Virus record (IMG/VR): IMGVR_UViG_3300011253_000424
Location: 1 to 31,129 of that record
Length of the DNA: 31,129 nucleotides
Strand: one strand, 5' to 3'
DNA from: a virus
The number at the start of each line of letters is the position of its first letter. The first letter of the stretch is position 1. Both the position numbers and the translations under genes were made by a program. Under the pieces are notes generated by a model, which searched no databases, was not told the origin of the DNA, and saw only the letters and a program-made list of their open reading frames with translations. Positions 6,521 to 27,249 of the stretch are shown here, piece by piece.

Positions 6521-7336
6521 ATGACACAGTTAATTGATCCAACGAAATTTACAAATGCAGTAAGCAAATTAAGAACATTCTTTATGGACAAAGGTTTTGA
6601 AGAAGTTCATACACAAAACAGACTTAGCATTTTAGCAGCATGTGAAGACCCATTTAATGTTGCCACCTATAAATACGAAGGCCGTGTATGGCCATTGCCA
6701 CAGACAGGTCAGATGTGGTTAGAGCATGAATTGCTTACCAAGCCTTCTTCGAAAGGCTTTTTTTGTGTCTCAACTTCCTATAGACAAGAACCTAATGCTA
6801 TTCCGGGCAGACACGATACAATCTTTCCAATGTTTGAATTTGAAATGCCGGGTGATATTAATGACCTTGAAGCAATGGAACACGAACTGTGCGAGTATAT
6901 GGGATTTGGTGATATCACTGGTAAGACCTATGCTGAGTGGCAGAAAGAATATAATGTAGATGGTGAACTAGAAGACGAACACGAAAAGAAAATGTATCAA
7001 GAATACGGTTCTACAATGATCAAAGACTTCCCTGAGTTTACCTCACCGTTCTGGAACATGTCCAGATACGAAGATGGTGTAACATCCAAAAAGATTGACG
7101 TGATCTTAGGTGGTATGGAAACTATTGGTTCAGCAGAACGTTCTACAAATGTTAAACAGATGAGAGATACATTCCATACAATTGCAAATGGTGAGTATGC
7201 TAACTTACTGTTTGATTTGTTTGGTAGAGGACGTGTTGAAAAAGAATTGGAAGAGTTTCTAAAGTATGACTTCTTCCCTAGAGTTGGTGGTGGTATTGGC
7301 ATGACTCGTATGATTGCTGCACTCGACAAACTCTAA
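6521..7336 (+). CDS. Class II asparaginyl-tRNA synthetase-like catalytic core (possible AsnA/AS-AR-type asparagine synthetase)
   Basis: 271 residues: a complete class II aminoacyl-tRNA synthetase core and nothing else. Visible are a motif-1-like helix (about 18-30), an LPQTGQ amino-acid/tRNA-CCA pocket loop (59-64), motif 2 with YRQE (87-90) followed by a GRHDTIFPMFEFE strand, a GGMETIGSAERS segment (197-208) typical of the AsnRS/AspRS group, and motif 3 GGGIGMTRM (256-264) with the ATP-binding Arg. The N-terminal OB-fold anticodon-binding domain of AsnRS is absent. AsnRS cores lacking that domain are known in archaea as ammonia-dependent asparagine synthetases (AS-AR), and GGGIG near the end also recalls AsnA. 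A tRNA gene with an Asn-type anticodon starts 10 nt after its stop, so either aminoacylation of that tRNA or free asparagine synthesis is possible. Confidence 0.8.
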   Translation: MTQLIDPTKFTNAVSKLRTFFMDKGFEEVHTQNRLSILAACEDPFNVATYKYEGRVWPLPQTGQMWLEHELLTKPSSKGFFCVSTSYRQEPNAIPGRHDTIFPMFEFEMPGDINDLEAMEHELCEYMGFGDITGKTYAEWQKEYNVDGELEDEHEKKMYQEYGSTMIKDFPEFTSPFWNMSRYEDGVTSKKIDVILGGMETIGSAERSTNVKQMRDTFHTIANGEYANLLFDLFGRGRVEKELEEFLKYDFFPRVGGGIGMTRMIAALDKL

Positions 7337-7345
7337 AAAGAACAA

Positions 7346-7431
7346 TCCGGGGTGGTGAAATAGGTAAACACGCACGACCGTTTATCGTGTGCTTAATAGG
7401 CTTGAAGGTTCGATTCCTTCTCCCGGAGCCA
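7346..7431 (+). tRNA. Aberrant tRNA, class II body, apparent anticodon GUU (Asn-like), encoded CCA
   Basis: A full cloverleaf can be drawn: acceptor TCCGGGG/TCCCGGA (last pair G-U), D-stem GTG/CAC, anticodon stem CACGA/TCGTG, T-arm GAAGG-TTCGATT-CCTTC, G73 and encoded CCA. The variable region is 14 nt with a short GCT/GGC arm, and the D-loop reads like tRNA-Leu, yet T1-A72 and G73 are as in bacterial tRNA-Asn. The anticodon loop CCGTTTA puts GTT at 34-36, but position 33 is C and 37 is T, both against near-universal rules. It lies 10 nt after the synthetase-like gene and is probably cotranscribed with it. That it is a tRNA is firm; its identity and decoding ability are doubtful. Confidence 0.85.
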
Positions 7432-10365: not shown

Positions 10366-10548
10366 TTACTTTTTACCAACTATTTTACAATCTACCATAA
10401 AGACCTGATATGTATCATCTGGTCCAGCAGAATCTCTTAATCTAGCGTATTTATTCATTGCTTCATAATAAGGAAGTCTAGTGGACACCGTAGTCGGAGG
10501 TGCCCACCAGTCTTTGTCATCATAATGAATGACTACATAGAGATTGAT
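10366..10548 (-). CDS. Hypothetical 60-residue protein lacking a standard start codon
   Basis: A coding-like frame of 61 codons, from the codon overlapping the BMP stop to TAA at 10366. The protein reads (I/M)NLYVVIHYDDKDWWAPP, then a helix (LPYYEAMNKYARLRD) and a beta strand (TYQVFMVDCKIVGKK), with natural composition. No ATG, GTG or TTG lies upstream in frame before a stop. The junction is TAATC, exactly where this genome often has the coupled TAATG, so the start is either ATC or a mutated or miscalled ATG. The terminator begins 2 nt after its stop, as expected for a real last gene. Function unknown. Confidence 0.5.
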   Translation of the reverse strand: MNLYVVIHYDDKDWWAPPTTVSTRLPYYEAMNKYARLRDSAGPDDTYQVFMVDCKIVGKK

Positions 10549-11651
10549 TAGTTCGGAAGAGATGCTTCAATACCTTGAATGTACCAGTCCATAGAAAGCA
10601 GGGTTGGCCAATCATCCAAGTTTGCTGCACCAGCAGCACACTCATCAGGAACAGAACCATCTTGCTTCAGCAGACCTTCACATGGAAATGCATGACGGTC
10701 ACCATTTGCTAGCGCTTGCTCAAGCATAAGTGCTTCAGTAACAAGTGTCTGACCCATAGCATCTACATTGTAACTTTCTAGAGCAACCATGCCTACTTCA
10801 CCACCTTGACCATCTTTGGTGAAACCCCACCAAGTATCACCACCAGTCCATGTGCCGTCCATTACCTGACCTACACGGTCAACATAGTAAGTATCCCAAT
10901 CATCTACAATAGAAACGAGATGCGCATTAGGACCAAAGGCAGACATATTAGATGCCTGACCAAATGCATAGACACCAGCATTCTCTGCTACTTGTACAGG
11001 TGCAGGAGAGTCAGTGTGCTGTACAATAATATCAGCACCTTCATCAATCAGTGCCTGTGCTGCACCAGCTTCCTTAGCAGGATCAAACCATGTATACAAC
11101 CAAATAATATCTACTTCAATATCAGGGTTATGTTTCTGTGCTTCCAACATGAATGCGTTAATACCACGCACTACTTCTGGAATAGGGAATGATGCAATAT
11201 AACCGACTTTATTAGTCTTAGTCATATTAGCAGCAATCATACCTTGGACTACACGACCTTCATAGAAGCGTGCAGAGAACGTAGACATATTGTCAGTGTC
11301 ACGAACATAACCAGTTGCGTGTTCAAATGCTACTTCTGGATAGTTGGCAGCAACTTCGTTAGTTGCATCCATATAACCAAAAGAGGTTGTAAAGATAATA
11401 TCATGACCAGTTTCGGCAAGCTGAGTGATTGCCTCTACTGCTTCTGGACCTTCTGGAACCATTTCTAGATAGGTAGTAGATACGTCAGGACCATAGGCTT
11501 CTTCTACAGCAAGACGACCAACATCATGTCGGTATGTCCAGCCAAGATCACCAATTGGACCTACATAAATGAAACCTACTTTGGTTTCAGCAAATGCAGC
11601 AGTAGCAGTTGCAATAGTGAGTGCTAGGGATGCTAGAATATTCTTAAGCAT
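10548..11651 (-). CDS. BMP-family periplasmic substrate-binding protein (nucleoside/purine type)
   Basis: 367 residues. Signal peptide about 1-21 (AAFAETK; no lipobox Cys). The mature protein is a type 1 periplasmic binding fold of the BMP/Med/PnrA family: KVGFIYVGPIGDLGWTYRHDVGR at the start, GHDIIFTTSFGYMDA, KVGYIASFPIPEVVRGINAF, and ADIIVQHTDSPAP with YAFGQASNM. Family members bind purine nucleosides or related ligands for an ABC importer. No permease or ATPase lies nearby, so it would have to feed a host transporter. It lies downstream of PiT-PstS but behind a terminator, so it is expressed separately. Phage copies of PstS are well known; a phage BMP protein is unusual to me. Confidence 0.85.
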   Translation of the reverse strand: MLKNILASLALTIATATAAFAETKVGFIYVGPIGDLGWTYRHDVGRLAVEEAYGPDVSTTYLEMVPEGPEAVEAITQLAETGHDIIFTTSFGYMDATNEVAANYPEVAFEHATGYVRDTDNMSTFSARFYEGRVVQGMIAANMTKTNKVGYIASFPIPEVVRGINAFMLEAQKHNPDIEVDIIWLYTWFDPAKEAGAAQALIDEGADIIVQHTDSPAPVQVAENAGVYAFGQASNMSAFGPNAHLVSIVDDWDTYYVDRVGQVMDGTWTGGDTWWGFTKDGQGGEVGMVALESYNVDAMGQTLVTEALMLEQALANGDRHAFPCEGLLKQDGSVPDECAAGAANLDDWPTLLSMDWYIQGIEASLPN

Positions 11652-11678
11652 GGTTTGCAGTTTCCTTGTTTTATATTT

Positions 11679-11710
11679 AAAAAAGAAAAGGGAGCCGAAG
11701 CTCCCCTTTC
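11679..11710 (-). terminator. Rho-independent terminator after pstS
   Basis: On the - strand GGGAGC-TTCG-GCTCCC followed by TTTTCTTTTTT. A perfect 6-bp stem with a stable tetraloop 11-42 nt after the pstS stop; it separates the phosphate genes from the BMP gene. A TATAAAAC further downstream is a possible weak late promoter for the BMP gene. Confidence 0.85.
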
Positions 11711-11720
11711 CGGTTATCCC

Positions 11721-12710
11721 TTAGAGGGATTCGAGCGCCTCATACATAGCGTCTTGGTCATCATCCCCACCGGGAATCAAACCTTCACCTACGAGAGAAC
11801 CATCAGGACCAGCCATAAGTACAAACTCTTCAGCGTACTCTGCCAGACCTTCAATTACTCCAATGTGATTATTCTTCACATAAAAGTAAAGAGAACGAGA
11901 GATTGGGTAATCGCCAGAGGCAATATTTTCAAACTCAGGTTCTACATCATTAATCACAGCACCTTTAATAAGGTCTGCGTTGTTCTGCAAAAAGGAGAAG
12001 CCGAAAATACCTACAGCCTGTGCATCTTGTGTAAGTTGCCCAATAATCAGATTATCATTTTCACCAGATTCAACGTATACACCATCAGCACGAACTTTTG
12101 CTGCCTTATATACGCTCTTAGAGCAACCAAGATGCTTCAGACCATCCTGTACTACCAGTTCCATGTATGCGTCACGGGTACCAGACGAAGATGGTGGTCC
12201 CAGAAGCATAATATCAAAATCTGGAAGTGCTGGATTGATATCAGACCACTTAGTGTATGGATTAGCAGTCATAGAAGTACAGTCCGCATTAGGAATTTCT
12301 TCAACAGTTGCCAAAGCCAACTCTTCAATGGTAAACGCAAGGTCTACACCATCAATAGAGTTAGAGATTACAATTCCGTCGTAGCCAATCATGAATTCAG
12401 TAAACTCTACACTGTTAGATGTGCAGGTTTCTGCTTCAGAGGATTTCATTGCACGGGATGCATTAGTAACGTCAGGTGTGGAAAGACCAGTACCCTGACA
12501 GAACAACTTCATGCCACCACCAGAGCCAGTAGACTCAATAATTGGGGTGTTGAAGCCGGAAGCTTCCCCAAACGTTTCAGCAACTTTAGAAGCGAATGGG
12601 TAAACGGTAGATGAACCAACGATGTTAATAGTGTTGGCACGATCTGCGACTGCGGCGGACGTGGCGATTAAACTCACGAACATTGCAATCATTACGTTAA
12701 ATGCTCTCAT
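11721..12710 (-). CDS. pstS: Phosphate-binding protein PstS
   Basis: 329 residues with a signal peptide (about 1-22, ending AAVADR). The phosphate-site loops are present: VGSSTVYPF (31-39), ESTGSGGGMKLF (about 59-70) and LLGPPSSSGTRDAYME (about 169-184), in the order of the alphaproteobacterial form. It captures phosphate in the periplasm for PstCAB. The phage has no PstCAB here, so it must supply the host permease, as inferred for cyanophage PstS. It lies 21 nt after the PiT gene with AAGGAG before the ATG, and should be cotranscribed with it. Confidence 0.92.
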   Translation of the reverse strand: MRAFNVMIAMFVSLIATSAAVADRANTINIVGSSTVYPFASKVAETFGEASGFNTPIIESTGSGGGMKLFCQGTGLSTPDVTNASRAMKSSEAETCTSNSVEFTEFMIGYDGIVISNSIDGVDLAFTIEELALATVEEIPNADCTSMTANPYTKWSDINPALPDFDIMLLGPPSSSGTRDAYMELVVQDGLKHLGCSKSVYKAAKVRADGVYVESGENDNLIIGQLTQDAQAVGIFGFSFLQNNADLIKGAVINDVEPEFENIASGDYPISRSLYFYVKNNHIGVIEGLAEYAEEFVLMAGPDGSLVGEGLIPGGDDDQDAMYEALESL

Positions 12711-12731
12711 CTTTTTCTCCTTTAAAGAACA

Positions 12732-13682
12732 TTATTGTGGTTGTAACAGTGTGTGAATCATAATCACAATACCAACAGAAGCAGCAAGTCCAATCATCAT
12801 CTTAAAGAAGTCCTTGCCCACAAGTGGGAAGACTGAACGGAACTTACGTTTTTGAGTAAAGCTTGCGATTGCTAATTCACGACCTGTTAACAGACCAATG
12901 AATACCCAAGTGGTAGACATTGGAATATCGTTCCACTCCTTAAAGACCCAGAGAATCAAGAAGTAGAATAAGTCAATGATAGTTGCAGAACGCACATACC
13001 GGGTATTGTGTTTCTCCAATACGACGGTTTGAATACGTCCACCATTTTCTCTGAACATCCAGTAAAGACCAGATACAAAAATAACAGAGATTGCGAACAT
13101 CATTTCAATCGGGACTTGACGTGGCAGGAACACCGCAATGTTTGCCATGTCGTGGCTGAGCCATGTATACCACAAGAATCCTGTAGTTACCCACTGAGCA
13201 ACAATCCAATATTTTTTGTGTTCATCCTTTACAGGATTAGACTCATCCAAGAGTTTACTAATAATAAACCAGATACCATAGGCAGAAACAGCAGCAATAG
13301 CATATCCCATAATCGACTTGACCAACATCTTTTCCAATACAAAGGTTGAAGCAAATGCAGATAGGACAAGAAACGATGTAGATACAGGAACACCAAATCT
13401 AGTCAGCACAAGAAGTACTGCTGGAGCTAATGCATGATACCACTGAATTTCTTGGAAGGGAATTTTGTTAAGTCGGCCGTAGGAGATATCACCTCCATTT
13501 GTATACCAACCAAACCAAATTGTAAAGAGTAGGACTGCTGACGCTGCGGCCCACATAATCATACGGTTTGTTTTTTGATTTGAGGCAATCCATGTTCCGA
13601 GCGTCTGAACAGAATCGTTAGCGATTACAGAGTAGGATGCGAGTAGAAAACCTACAATCATCCAGATTGAAATATAGTCCAT
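12732..13682 (-). CDS. PiT-family inorganic phosphate transporter
   Basis: 316 residues with about eight or nine transmembrane helices. Both halves carry the inverted PiT repeat: ANDSVQTLGT (21-30) and SHDMAN (176-181) correspond to the G-x-N-D-x-A-N signature, and GVPVSTSF (97-104) and DIPMSTTW (252-259) to P-V-S-T-T. It is somewhat shorter than typical PiT proteins but not visibly truncated. Family members co-import phosphate with H+ or Na+. In contrast to PstS it works alone, so the phage provides both a binding protein for the host ABC system and a complete secondary carrier. AAGGA precedes the ATG. Confidence 0.8.
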   Translation of the reverse strand: MDYISIWMIVGFLLASYSVIANDSVQTLGTWIASNQKTNRMIMWAAASAVLLFTIWFGWYTNGGDISYGRLNKIPFQEIQWYHALAPAVLLVLTRFGVPVSTSFLVLSAFASTFVLEKMLVKSIMGYAIAAVSAYGIWFIISKLLDESNPVKDEHKKYWIVAQWVTTGFLWYTWLSHDMANIAVFLPRQVPIEMMFAISVIFVSGLYWMFRENGGRIQTVVLEKHNTRYVRSATIIDLFYFLILWVFKEWNDIPMSTTWVFIGLLTGRELAIASFTQKRKFRSVFPLVGKDFFKMMIGLAASVGIVIMIHTLLQPQ

Positions 13683-13698: not shown

Positions 13699-13716
13699 GT
13701 AGGTTATTATACCTAC
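13699..13716. promoter_or_regulatory. Palindrome enclosing a TATAAT box upstream of the PiT gene
   Basis: GTAGGT-TATTAT-ACCTAC is an exact 6-6-6 palindrome 17 nt before the PiT ATG. On the - strand its centre gives TATAAT (13711-13706). No convincing -35 box lies 17 nt away. It may be an operator-promoter for the phosphate genes or a processing site for the tmRNA 3' end. Confidence 0.4.
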
Positions 13717-13734
13717 GATGAAGGTGTTAGAGTT

Positions 13735-14020
13735 AAATGTTTCGGGTGGGGACCGAAGTCCCCTTCTGTTTCTAGGCTTCCCGAAATGAGCCCACAGTAC
13801 TTATGCTGCGAGAGCGTAAGCCTTAGGAGCAACGTAATTGTTTGCTTTTAGTTTAGTTTGGTCCTTACGAGACCACCCGGTTTGTCTCCACTCACTTCGT
13901 ATACCTGTCGATCCTATTTCGCCCCCATCAAAAATATACCTACCTTGATATACTTGTGGTGGAGGCGGTGGGTACTGCCCCCACGTCCAGCATATAGTCC
14001 GCTCGCTTCATCAACGAACA
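13735..14020 (-). ncRNA. ssrA: Circularly permuted two-piece tmRNA (alphaproteobacterial type)
   Basis: Read on the - strand. An acceptor piece ends at 13957 with CGCCTCC-A-CCA and a GTGGG/CCCAC T-arm (13971-13987). About 30 nt later the coding piece begins at 13926 with GGGGGCG, which pairs with CGCCTCC to form the acceptor stem, followed by GGATCGAC as in all tmRNAs. CAGGTATA then pairs with TATATGCTG of the acceptor piece (one bulge), forming helix P2. The tag frame runs 13845-13801: ANNYVAPKAYALAA then TAA, with the usual A-N start and LAA-type end. A GGGGAC-CGAA-GTCCCC hairpin inside a TTTCGGG/CCCGAAA stem closes the 3' side. It would rescue stalled ribosomes and tag proteins. The outer ends are approximate. 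Confidence 0.92.
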
Positions 14021-14024
14021 TCGT

Positions 14025-14032
14025 TATTTATC
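14025..14032 (-). promoter_or_regulatory. Late-promoter-like GATAAATA before the tmRNA
   Basis: One mismatch to TATAAATA on the - strand, overlapping the stop of the 25-codon frame and just upstream of the likely 5' end of the tmRNA acceptor piece. The same variant occurs at 6171-6178. Suggestive only. Confidence 0.3.
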
Positions 14033-14108
14033 ACATGTACTCGCTGACTAGAAGCCAGACAAAGAGTGCAACAAACATCAGCAATGCAATGCTGGCTAAT
14101 ACTATCAT
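14031..14108 (-). CDS. 25-residue membrane microprotein
   Basis: A 26-codon frame starts at an ATG overlapping the upstream stop (TGATG) and encodes MIVLASIALLMFVALF followed by VWLLVSEYM, one perfect transmembrane helix with a short polar end. The coupled start and the entirely hydrophobic content argue that it is real, though it is short enough to arise by chance. It lies directly upstream of the tmRNA acceptor piece. Confidence 0.45.
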   Translation of the reverse strand: MIVLASIALLMFVALFVWLLVSEYM

Positions 14109-14356
14109 CAATCTGTTGCCCTGTCAATATCTACAGCATACTCATCTACTTCTGTAACGTTAAAAAATGTTGATTCATATTGAACCAAATCATCATAGTT
14201 CTTTTCACTTACCATATAAGGTGAATGCTGCACCTCAAACTCGACCCGACTATGTATGCGTTCAGAAAGATACTCATCAGCTTCCCAACGAGTATCAAAA
14301 AATGCTACAGCAGGATTAGGGTCAAGATAATCCACAGATTCAGTAACTTTAAACAT
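14108..14356 (-). CDS. Small acidic hypothetical protein
   Basis: 82 residues from the ATG at 14356, which has AAGGA 6 nt upstream; a longer TTG start at 14374 is less likely. Acidic and Tyr-rich, with FDTRWEADEYLSERIHSRVEFEV in the middle, probably a single alpha/beta domain. No family recognised. First of a string of five tiny genes (15104-14031) resembling the clustered small early genes of T4-like phages, which often act on host functions. Confidence 0.6.
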   Translation of the reverse strand: MFKVTESVDYLDPNPAVAFFDTRWEADEYLSERIHSRVEFEVQHSPYMVSEKNYDDLVQYESTFFNVTEVDEYAVDIDRATD

Positions 14357-15879: not shown

Positions 15880-15904
15880 ATCTTCCTTCTTATAAAATGT
15901 ATAG

Positions 15905-16066
15905 GTGGGATTAAGGATTACCCACAATGGACCACTGGCAAACTCCTGTCTACTAGGTCCAAACCTACCTGCATCCGCTAAGACGGGTCGCTAAACCCCT
16001 TCGGTATTACCTTATCCGCATCTGCCACGGATTATTCAGTCACTATACTATTCCGACCGTCGTCGA
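15905..16066 (-). other. Structured non-coding stretch between tRNA-Leu and DUF1289
   Basis: About 195 nt without a convincing gene (15880-16075), visibly richer in G and C than the surroundings. On the - strand at least five short hairpins follow each other: CGAC/GTCG (16065-16054), TCCG/CGGA (16031-16015), GGGT/ACCC (15998-15985), TAGGT/ACCTA (15967-15954) and GTGGG/CCCAC (15925-15905). It could be an RNA processed from the tRNA transcript or a 5' leader controlling DUF1289. No known RNA family recognised. Confidence 0.4.
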
Positions 16067-16075
16067 AAACTAATT

Positions 16076-16161
16076 TGGTACTCCCTGCCAGACTTGAACT
16101 GGCACAGCCAAAGGCTAACAGATTTTAAGTCTGTCGTGTCTACCGTTTCCACCAAGGGAGC
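16076..16161 (-). tRNA. tRNA-Leu (UAA), encoded CCA
   Basis: A complete class II cloverleaf: acceptor GCTCCCT/AGGGAGT, D-arm GTG/CAC, anticodon stem ACAGA/TCTGT with loop CTTAAAA (anticodon TAA, normal T33 and A37), variable arm GCC/GGC, T-arm GCCAG-TTCAAGT-CTGGC, A73 and CCA. It reads UUA, a frequent Leu codon in this AT-rich genome. A consensus promoter lies 28 nt upstream. Confidence 0.95.
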
Positions 16162-25658: not shown

Positions 25659-26713
25659 ATCTCTAAATCCTGTGCTTCAATATATAATTCTCTTGTCGTA
25701 TTCTTGAGTCTATCTTTACTTAGGTCAATCGGTAGGTCATCAATATAGCGTTCAAGCAAGGTCATAGTGTCCTCGGTATTCTCAACAATATCATCAGAGA
25801 CATTGCTTGCATCCAACTCTGAGAAATCTTCAATAATCTTGACCTCATGACAATCAGCCTGTAACAACCTATCAACAAATTTATCGAACTGATAAAGGTC
25901 TTTCTTATTGACCACAACCAATTTCACATATTTATTTTTATACGCCGACATATCATGATTATCGTCAAAAATGGACACCGTATCATCATAGTAAATCTTA
26001 GAGTAAATAGTAAGAGGATTGACAATCCGTTCTAGCTCTCTCTTCTCTGTATCAAACACATGAAACCCTTTAGGATCATTCCAATCATTCCAGTAGATTT
26101 CATATGGTGTGCCAAGATAGAATATTTGACCGTCATCTGATTTGTGGTGATAATGACCACTCATCACCATATCAAATCTTTTAAATTCTTGTCTGTCCCA
26201 ACCATGATCCATGACTAAACCTCTCTGCATCTCAAAACCATTCAACTCTAAATGGCCCATGCAGATTTGAGCATCAGATGTTTGTAACATCTTCATCGTG
26301 TGAGACATATTCTCAGTATTAATCCAAGGAACAAATAGAATTCTACATCCATCAAACTCAACTTCAGTTGATTTCTCATAAACCGTAATATTGTTGTGTC
26401 TGCCGTCCACGAGTTCCTGTAGTGAGTTCACCTCGTTGGTATTCTTGTAGAAGGTGTCATGGTTTCCAACAAGCATATGAAAGTTTATGCCTTCAAACTT
26501 ATCAATAAACCGCTCACGGAAATCTTTCGCAATACGATAGGACACATATTTCCTTCTATCCATCACATCACCGAGATGAACAACATCGGTTATGTTGTGT
26601 TCCTTTAGATATGGGAAAAACTGGTTCTCATAAAACTCAAAAAAGTATTCGTTAAAGTTTTGATTGTCATTCCTAGCGCCGAAGTGAGTGTCGGTGATTA
26701 GAGCTACTTTCAA
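25655..26713 (-). CDS. 47: Recombination endonuclease subunit gp47 (SbcD/Mre11-like)
   Basis: 352 residues with the Mre11-type phosphoesterase motifs: ALITDTHFGARND (4-16), VHLGDVMDRRK (about 45-55), LVGNHDTF, CMGHLELNGFEM and MVMSGHYHHKSDD. Metal-dependent nuclease partner of gp46. Starts at TTG 26713, overlapping the gp55 stop (TTGA). The C-terminal third is acidic and binds gp46 in this family. Confidence 0.95.
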   Translation of the reverse strand: MKVALITDTHFGARNDNQNFNEYFFEFYENQFFPYLKEHNITDVVHLGDVMDRRKYVSYRIAKDFRERFIDKFEGINFHMLVGNHDTFYKNTNEVNSLQELVDGRHNNITVYEKSTEVEFDGCRILFVPWINTENMSHTMKMLQTSDAQICMGHLELNGFEMQRGLVMDHGWDRQEFKRFDMVMSGHYHHKSDDGQIFYLGTPYEIYWNDWNDPKGFHVFDTEKRELERIVNPLTIYSKIYYDDTVSIFDDNHDMSAYKNKYVKLVVVNKKDLYQFDKFVDRLLQADCHEVKIIEDFSELDASNVSDDIVENTEDTMTLLERYIDDLPIDLSKDRLKNTTRELYIEAQDLEI

Positions 26714-27249
26714 TCTTTTTTCTCCATGAAGACTTCTAGTCCTTTTTTCTTACCAGAGTCTTCTTTTTTCTTGGGTTTATAAACATCTTCCTCTGGCAAG
26801 AATGCAGCTAAGTCAATCCCCTCAACATGATAAACGCTATTATCACCTTCCATAGTTGTGAAAGAAGTATAAGCCTCTCTCTCAATCATTTTATTCTTTA
26901 CATGACTTTGCTTTTTCTCTTTTGCAATTCTTCTTAAAAATGCATAATAGATTATCTGAGTGAAGTATGCAAAAGGGTTTTTTGATTTTTCTGGATTGAA
27001 ATTTTTTACATATTGTAGACAATTCTCAATACCGTCTGAAATCATTTCATCTCTGTAAGTATAGTTTATGAAATTTGGTCTATATGATAAATGAGTTGCG
27101 ATTTTTAAAAAACACTCACCAATATAATTTGTAACAGGAGGAGACTGCTTTCCAGCATCTTCTGCGATAGCGCACTTCTCTCTCCACTCAATCATTGCTT
27201 GTAAAAAAACTTTGTTGTCTACATAATGAACACTTTTTTTCTTTGCCAT
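26710..27249 (-). CDS. 55: Late-transcription sigma factor gp55
   Basis: 179 residues, basic. YRDEMISDGIENCLQYVKNFNPEKSKNPFAYFTQIIYYAFLRRIAKEKKQ (about 67-115) corresponds to sigma region 2 as in T4 gp55, which recognises TATAAATA without a -35 box; exact TATAAATA elements precede late units here. The Lys-rich C-terminus is where T4 gp55 carries its sliding-clamp-binding tail; here it ends GLEVFMEKKD. Served by its own consensus promoter. First gene of the 55-47-46 string. Confidence 0.9.
   Translation of the reverse strand: MAKKKSVHYVDNKVFLQAMIEWREKCAIAEDAGKQSPPVTNYIGECFLKIATHLSYRPNFINYTYRDEMISDGIENCLQYVKNFNPEKSKNPFAYFTQIIYYAFLRRIAKEKKQSHVKNKMIEREAYTSFTTMEGDNSVYHVEGIDLAAFLPEEDVYKPKKKEDSGKKKGLEVFMEKKD

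Follow-up and report, generated by a model that had tools for sequence, protein, structure and literature searches.

tmRNA rescues ribosomes that have stalled and adds a tag to the incomplete proteins on them, and the question raised by the locus described here is whether a phage carries a working one of its own and, if so, where it came from. The window -- the whole stretch of DNA analysed, an entire IMG/VR virus record of 31,129 bases, which is a fragment of a phage genome -- contains the T4 core genes for gp55, SbcC-like (gp46) and UvsW proteins, the gp55-like late sigma factor pointing to a T4-like phage with late transcription. The UvsW protein is 61% identical to that of Methylophilales phage Melnitz, its nearest cultured relative by this measure, and 53-54% identical to those of Pelagibacter phages Mosig and HTVC008M; to judge by its genes, the record is a T4-like marine phage fragment near Melnitz and the pelagimyophages. 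Phage genes flank the tmRNA on both sides. A blastn search of the tmRNA locus against cultured phages gave no match at E 1e-5, and at a looser E it matched Melnitz and alphaproteobacterial phages.

A complete circularly permuted tmRNA gene is present on the minus strand. ARAGORN places a permuted tmRNA with the tag ANNYVAPKAYALAA at 13710-14050, and Rfam cmscan matches the locus with both RF04321 (tmRNA_permuted; 14019-13801, 112.5 bits against a cut-off of 47, E 1.9e-21) and RF01849 (alpha_tmRNA; 14066-13754, E 9.1e-24), the 91.2 bits of the latter lying above its cut-off of 50. These three calls bear out the first-pass annotation, which had proposed a phage-encoded, permuted two-piece tmRNA with a tag and had named the alpha-tmRNA model as a check, and the gene ends and split points that it gave are correct to within a few bases. 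The acceptor piece is encoded ahead of the coding piece, with an intervening sequence (IVS) between them (Table 1). Both of the pairings it had described are there: GGGGGCG (13926-13920) with CGCCTCC (13967-13961), then A and CCA (13959-13957), and CAG/GTATA with TATAT/CTG, which includes one bulged G. Its predicted split at 13957/13926 falls, judged from sequence, at the CCA end and the start of the G1 side. The resulting acceptor stem has 7 bp with the G3-U70 alanine signal, a discriminator A and an encoded CCA, and a T arm and a P2 stem linking both pieces are present as well. The tag frame (GCA...GCA TAA, 13845-13801) has an Ala resume codon and, as had been claimed for it, a hydrophobic LAA-type end and a stop codon. 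The single strand folds with z = -3.63, an equally stable fold being found in 1 of 200 shuffles.

Table 1. Features of the tmRNA gene, its upstream region and the late sigma factor gene in the window.
Feature	Position	Strand	Remarks
Entire permuted tmRNA gene (acceptor piece, IVS, coding piece)	13740..14020	-	ARAGORN, Rfam
Acceptor piece	13957..14019	-	5' segment, P2 3' strand, T arm, acceptor 3' strand, A, CCA
P2 3' strand	13996-13988	-	
T arm	13984-13968	-	
Acceptor 3' strand CGCCTCC	13967-13961	-	followed by A
Encoded CCA	13959-13957	-	
Intervening sequence (IVS)	13927..13956	-	30 nt, AT-rich, without ORF
Coding-piece start	13913..13926	-	acceptor 5' strand GGGGGCG (G3 opposite U70) + AAATAGG
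P2 5' strand CAGGTATAC	13899..13907	-	
Pre-tag hairpin GGTC-TCGTAAG-GACC	13860..13874	-	varies with compensation among same-tag relatives
Tag reading frame ANNYVAPKAYALAA, stop TAA	13801..13845	-	ARAGORN
3' structured end	13740..13786	-	TTTCGGG / CCTAGAAACAGAA / hairpin / CCCGAAA
Hairpin GGGGAC-TTCG-GTCCCC	13763-13748	-	inside 3' structured end
GATAAATA	14025..14032	-	at site of relatives' -10 TATAAATA; putative promoter
Possible sigma70-type promoter TTGACA-N17-TAGTAT	14099..14127	-	consensus match only
Micro-ORF MIVLASIALLMFVALFVWLLVSEYM upstream of tmRNA	14031..14108	-	25 codons, hydrophobic; putatively coding
gp55-like late sigma factor	26710..27249	-	phrog_234, E 2.7e-64

The exact tag ANNYVAPKAYALAA is found in four other viral contigs (L122-L125), all with a standard acceptor stem and G3-U70 but in three further sequence versions: GGGCCAG/CTGGTCC, GGGGCAG/CTGCTCC and GGGGGTG/CACCTCC, beside GGGGGCG/CGCCTCC in the window. 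The pre-tag hairpin has compensatory versions in these relatives, GGTT/AACC and GATA/TATC; synonymous-only changes among them are not counted as evidence, since the set was found by its exact peptide. In 54 distinct phage sequences -- most of them collected by a downstream motif together with the TCCACCA end, with pairing not required, but the window and L122-L125 through a parser that required it, so that the set is partly selected for pairing -- 99.8% of acceptor and T-stem cells are paired and 8 of the 12 acceptor/T-stem pairs have changed on both sides, values reached by none of 500 shuffles. G3-U70 is kept in all 54, and the neighboring acceptor pairs and the T stem vary with compensation, which argues that the RNA is under selection. 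(Left out of this set were L010, L047 and L092, which the automatic cut had put in a shifted or wrong register.) Pairs drawn by RNAalifold between the 5' segment and the end of the tag are not claimed, since they are broken in L122 and L125. By eye, L122 and L125 have a common tRNA-like half and differing coding halves, while L122 and L124 have much of the coding half in common; the tRNA-like and mRNA-like halves therefore appear to have been exchanged between phages. The T loop of L122 and L125 is of the ordinary tRNA type (TTCGAAT-like) rather than the GGCRGTA usual in these tmRNAs.

These comparisons bear on whether the gene is in use. Were it a decaying passenger of host origin, a low model score would be expected, and its 91 bits with RF01849 do lie below the 143-313 bits of the main copies in 105 alphaproteobacterial genomes; we nonetheless consider this improbable, as every stem is intact and the relatives covary, the tag is encoded by an uninterrupted frame with an ALAA end, and related phages retain the gene in full together with its conserved promoter. 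It is similarly doubtful that the RNA is a decoy which competes with or blocks host trans-translation as mycobacteriophage DS6A is reported to do with its tag-less tmRNA-like gene (PMC11915505): inhibition of an endogenous tmRNA by a phage tmRNA has been reported (PMC11915505), but the tag frame and stop codon in the window are intact and of the usual form. That a piece of host chromosome was misassembled into a phage contig is scarcely credible, though tmRNAs of this type characterize a bacterial class, for the same tag and upstream micro-ORF recur with diverged flanks in separate viral contigs, none of the scanned genomes has the exact tag and phage genes lie on both sides, which already contradicts it. 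The locus is very likely a working, phage-borne two-piece tmRNA of alphaproteobacterial type.

Where such a gene came from is a separate matter. The first-pass annotation had derived it from an alphaproteobacterial host and read the host class from it. The alphaproteobacterial type stands, but the origin in such a host is not supported in that form: a search for the exact tag only, in the genomes of 84,980 species, gave no match, whereas four other viral contigs have it, and the RF01849 score is low. Recent transfer from an alphaproteobacterial host is likewise unsupported, the exact tag being in no scanned genome and the host T arms being different, although a host outside the sampled genomes may have been the donor. 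Among 95 parsed viral tmRNAs there are 38 different T arms, while a single one, CCGGGGGCGGTACCCGG, is found in 138 of 168 parsed bacterial tmRNAs, with 15 more one base away; the bacterial set is biased, most of it having come from the pattern TTKATGGGGGCGAAATAGGATCGAC and belonging to Rhizobiales, and includes one plain misparse (L302), though 40 bacterial regions drawn class-wide mostly agree with it. The median IVS of the parsed copies is 81 nt in viruses and 35 nt in bacteria. Melnitz, with the same type of tmRNA, infects OM43, a gammaproteobacterium (PMC9004378), so the tmRNA type alone is not an indicator of the host; the inference of an alphaproteobacterial host from it is weak and not safe, and we caution against reading host class in this way. 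From the presence of the tag in viral contigs but in none of the scanned genomes, the low RF01849 score and the Melnitz tmRNA, the gene has probably long been carried within a phage lineage. One alphaproteobacterial genome contains a second, diverged and phage-like tmRNA (L299, G100:C5:288409-289049; 72.8 bits) with the acceptor GGGCCGG/CCGGTCC and the parsed tag ANSTTANDNSPVAMAA, which is possibly a prophage or phage-derived copy.

The phage copies also have a common promoter, TTGAC-N17-TGGTATAAATA, that is absent from the host copies. Of 93 viral loci, 63 have its -10 motif, TATAAATA, 45-53 nt ahead of the T arm; none of 164 bacterial loci has it in the stretch tested. Aligned on this motif, TTGACA stands 17 nt upstream, 55 of the 63 matching it at 5-6 of 6 positions (no more than 4 in a control stretch), and TTGAC accompanies TATAAATA in 51 of 95 loci and plain TATAAT in 1. 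An early promoter named by the authors of the Melnitz study, who cite TATAAAT as the T4 late consensus, is consistent with this (PMC9004378). A purely T4-late reading of TATAAATA is ruled out by the TTGACA that most relatives have as a -35 box 17 nt upstream; by its motifs, the phage tmRNA promoter is at least a sigma70 promoter, and early and late use may both be possible, since the -10 is a fit to the T4 late consensus as well. In the window itself the promoter is less clear than in the relatives, GATAAATA having no -35 box that could be seen upstream, and this counts against the working-tmRNA reading. The sigma70-type match farther upstream lies in a region with as many promoter-consensus matches as shuffled sequence. 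The place of the relatives' -35 box is occupied in the window by the micro-ORF MIVLASIALLMFVALFVWLLVSEYM, whose stop overlaps GATAAATA and which is similar in L122, L124 (partial) and L125.

We infer the processing, charging, use of SmpB, timing and benefit of this tmRNA as follows. A single precursor would be transcribed from just upstream of 14020; host RNase P would cut it at 13927/13926 and 3' processing would take place at the encoded CCA, 13957, removing the 30-nt IVS; the acceptor and coding pieces so released would stay joined through the acceptor and P2 stems. Host AlaRS would charge the tmRNA through G3-U70, and together with host SmpB it would enter ribosomes stalled on broken messages, add (A)ANNYVAPKAYALAA and release the ribosome at TAA, the YALAA end presumably routing the tagged product to ClpXP-type proteases. 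No SmpB gene was found in the 31-kb window fragment, nor in any of 14 further phage records reaching up to 216 kb, including those of Melnitz and Mosig, which are complete; this implies a host partner, although the rest of this phage's genome may contain an SmpB gene. The likely benefit would be that ribosomes are kept free when messages are cut during infection, with the supply of tmRNA under phage promoters, and phage control of ribosome rescue by this route is plausible.

The window IVS is short and empty of any protein gene, but longer ones in the relatives are not. ATG frames longer than in 95% of dinucleotide shuffles are found in 26 of 42 viral loci with an IVS of at least 90 nt, not all of these loci being independent, as opposed to 0 of 12 bacterial loci. 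Small genes were first seen in the IVS of twelve loci (L004, L015, L018, L019, L021, L022, L046, L054, L055, L061, L063 and L088), and two protein families, A (L320-L399) and B (L400-L475), recur there. The search for family A gave 133 related viral stretches, of which 80 were kept; 65 of these have the gene inside a tmRNA IVS, and at least 3 more are cut by contig ends. The ORFs in those 65 take 40 distinct forms, and the tmRNAs that enclose them have 19 different tags and 12 T arms; 64 of the loci have a Shine-Dalgarno-like motif, and in 64 the stop codon ends exactly one base ahead of the acceptor strand. Differences in pairs more than 70% identical, pooled over non-independent pairs, number 2381, 1033 and 4455 at codon positions 1, 2 and 3, the concentration at position 3 being characteristic of a protein that is translated and under selection. 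Of 76 loci with family B, 50 have the gene in the IVS and most of the others have it elsewhere, and 35 of 51 parsed copies stop at a TAG inside the tRNA-like domain. To judge by these patterns, the nested genes are small conserved protein genes under purifying selection. Neither family has matches among cultured phages or PHROGs. The tmRNA database paper describes two cases of a further element in an IVS, one a tRNA gene and the other a repeat element, calling them unique or exceptional, and mentions no protein gene there (PMC11915505), nor was a description of protein genes nested in a tmRNA IVS found in the open-access literature searched. It seems likely that the IVS of permuted tmRNAs in marine phages is a regular home of conserved microprotein families, which would be translated from the precursor and have their ends at the tRNA-like domain or within it. 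On this view the window is an unoccupied allele of this gene site and same-tag L123, with a 45-codon frame in its IVS (shuffle p 0.025, weak alone), a candidate for an occupied one; cutting of the precursor would limit translation of the microprotein and so couple it to the tmRNA. The genes nested in the IVS are the most novel point to come from the relatives, and they merit a separate study.

Several other features of the window deserve mention in their own right. Downstream, at 10548-13682 (-), are three consecutive genes: one for a phosphate-permease-like membrane protein, assigned by reading of the sequence and without a Pfam match, and two for a PstS-like protein and a PnrA/BMP-like binding protein. 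The protein encoded at 10548-11651 in this region, taken as a guide to host class, has matches at E <= 1e-60 in 54 of 249 Pseudomonadota genomes, with a top identity of 58%, which does not point decisively to any one class. The gene at 6521-7336 (+) encodes the core of a class II synthetase (271 aa; phrog_29758) from the Asp/Asn/Lys group, and directly 3' of it, at 7346-7431 (+), is a tRNA with anticodon GUU, C at position 33 and a long type II variable arm that is unusual for an Asn (GUU) tRNA; the pair is also found in cyanophages P-SSM7 and P-SSM2. A manA RNA motif (RF01745, 63.1 bits) lies at 15895-16067 (-), adjoining a tRNA-Leu(taa) at 16076-16161 (-).

The window is a well-supported addition to the small list of phages with their own ribosome-rescue RNA, and the covariation indicates that such phage-borne RNAs are maintained. 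It also opens testable leads: the common phage promoter that joins a sigma70 -35 box to a -10, TATAAATA, also fitting the T4 late consensus; the strong diversification of T arms in phages as against their near-fixation in hosts; the exchange of tRNA-like and mRNA-like halves; and protein genes nested within a structural-RNA gene. The kind of RNA is already known in this phage group, to which the window adds another case, as a two-piece tmRNA of the alpha type has been published for Melnitz, and 53 two-piece forms, 50 of them from marine or aquatic phages, are among 133 unique phage tmRNA structures (PMC9004378); a 2025 tmRNA database has 79 phage sequences (PMC11915505). Like the window, Melnitz and Mosig (PMC9004378) are T4-like marine phages (Kyanoviridae in the records) with a permuted alpha-type tmRNA and no SmpB found. 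The Melnitz tag, ANDNYVPVDYALAA, also ends in YALAA, though the tags otherwise differ; its IVS is 142 nt rather than 30 nt, and its tmRNA is directly followed by a glutamine riboswitch, of which Rfam cmscan found none in the window. The gene neighbors differ from those in Melnitz and Mosig, the window having phosphate-uptake genes downstream. With the alphaproteobacterial permuted tmRNAs of RF01849 and RF04321 (Caulobacter type) it has in common the order of the pieces, the acceptor and T stems, G3-U70, the encoded CCA, P2, the Ala resume codon and a -LAA tag; it differs from them in a lower model score, in a tag that starts with ANNY rather than ANDN, and in a T arm of GTGGG-loop-CCCAC where the alphaproteobacterial hosts nearly always have CCGGG-loop-CCCGG and phage copies vary widely. 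The tag-less gene of DS6A is a phage-encoded tmRNA relative too, but it is without a coding sequence, whereas the coding piece in the window is intact.
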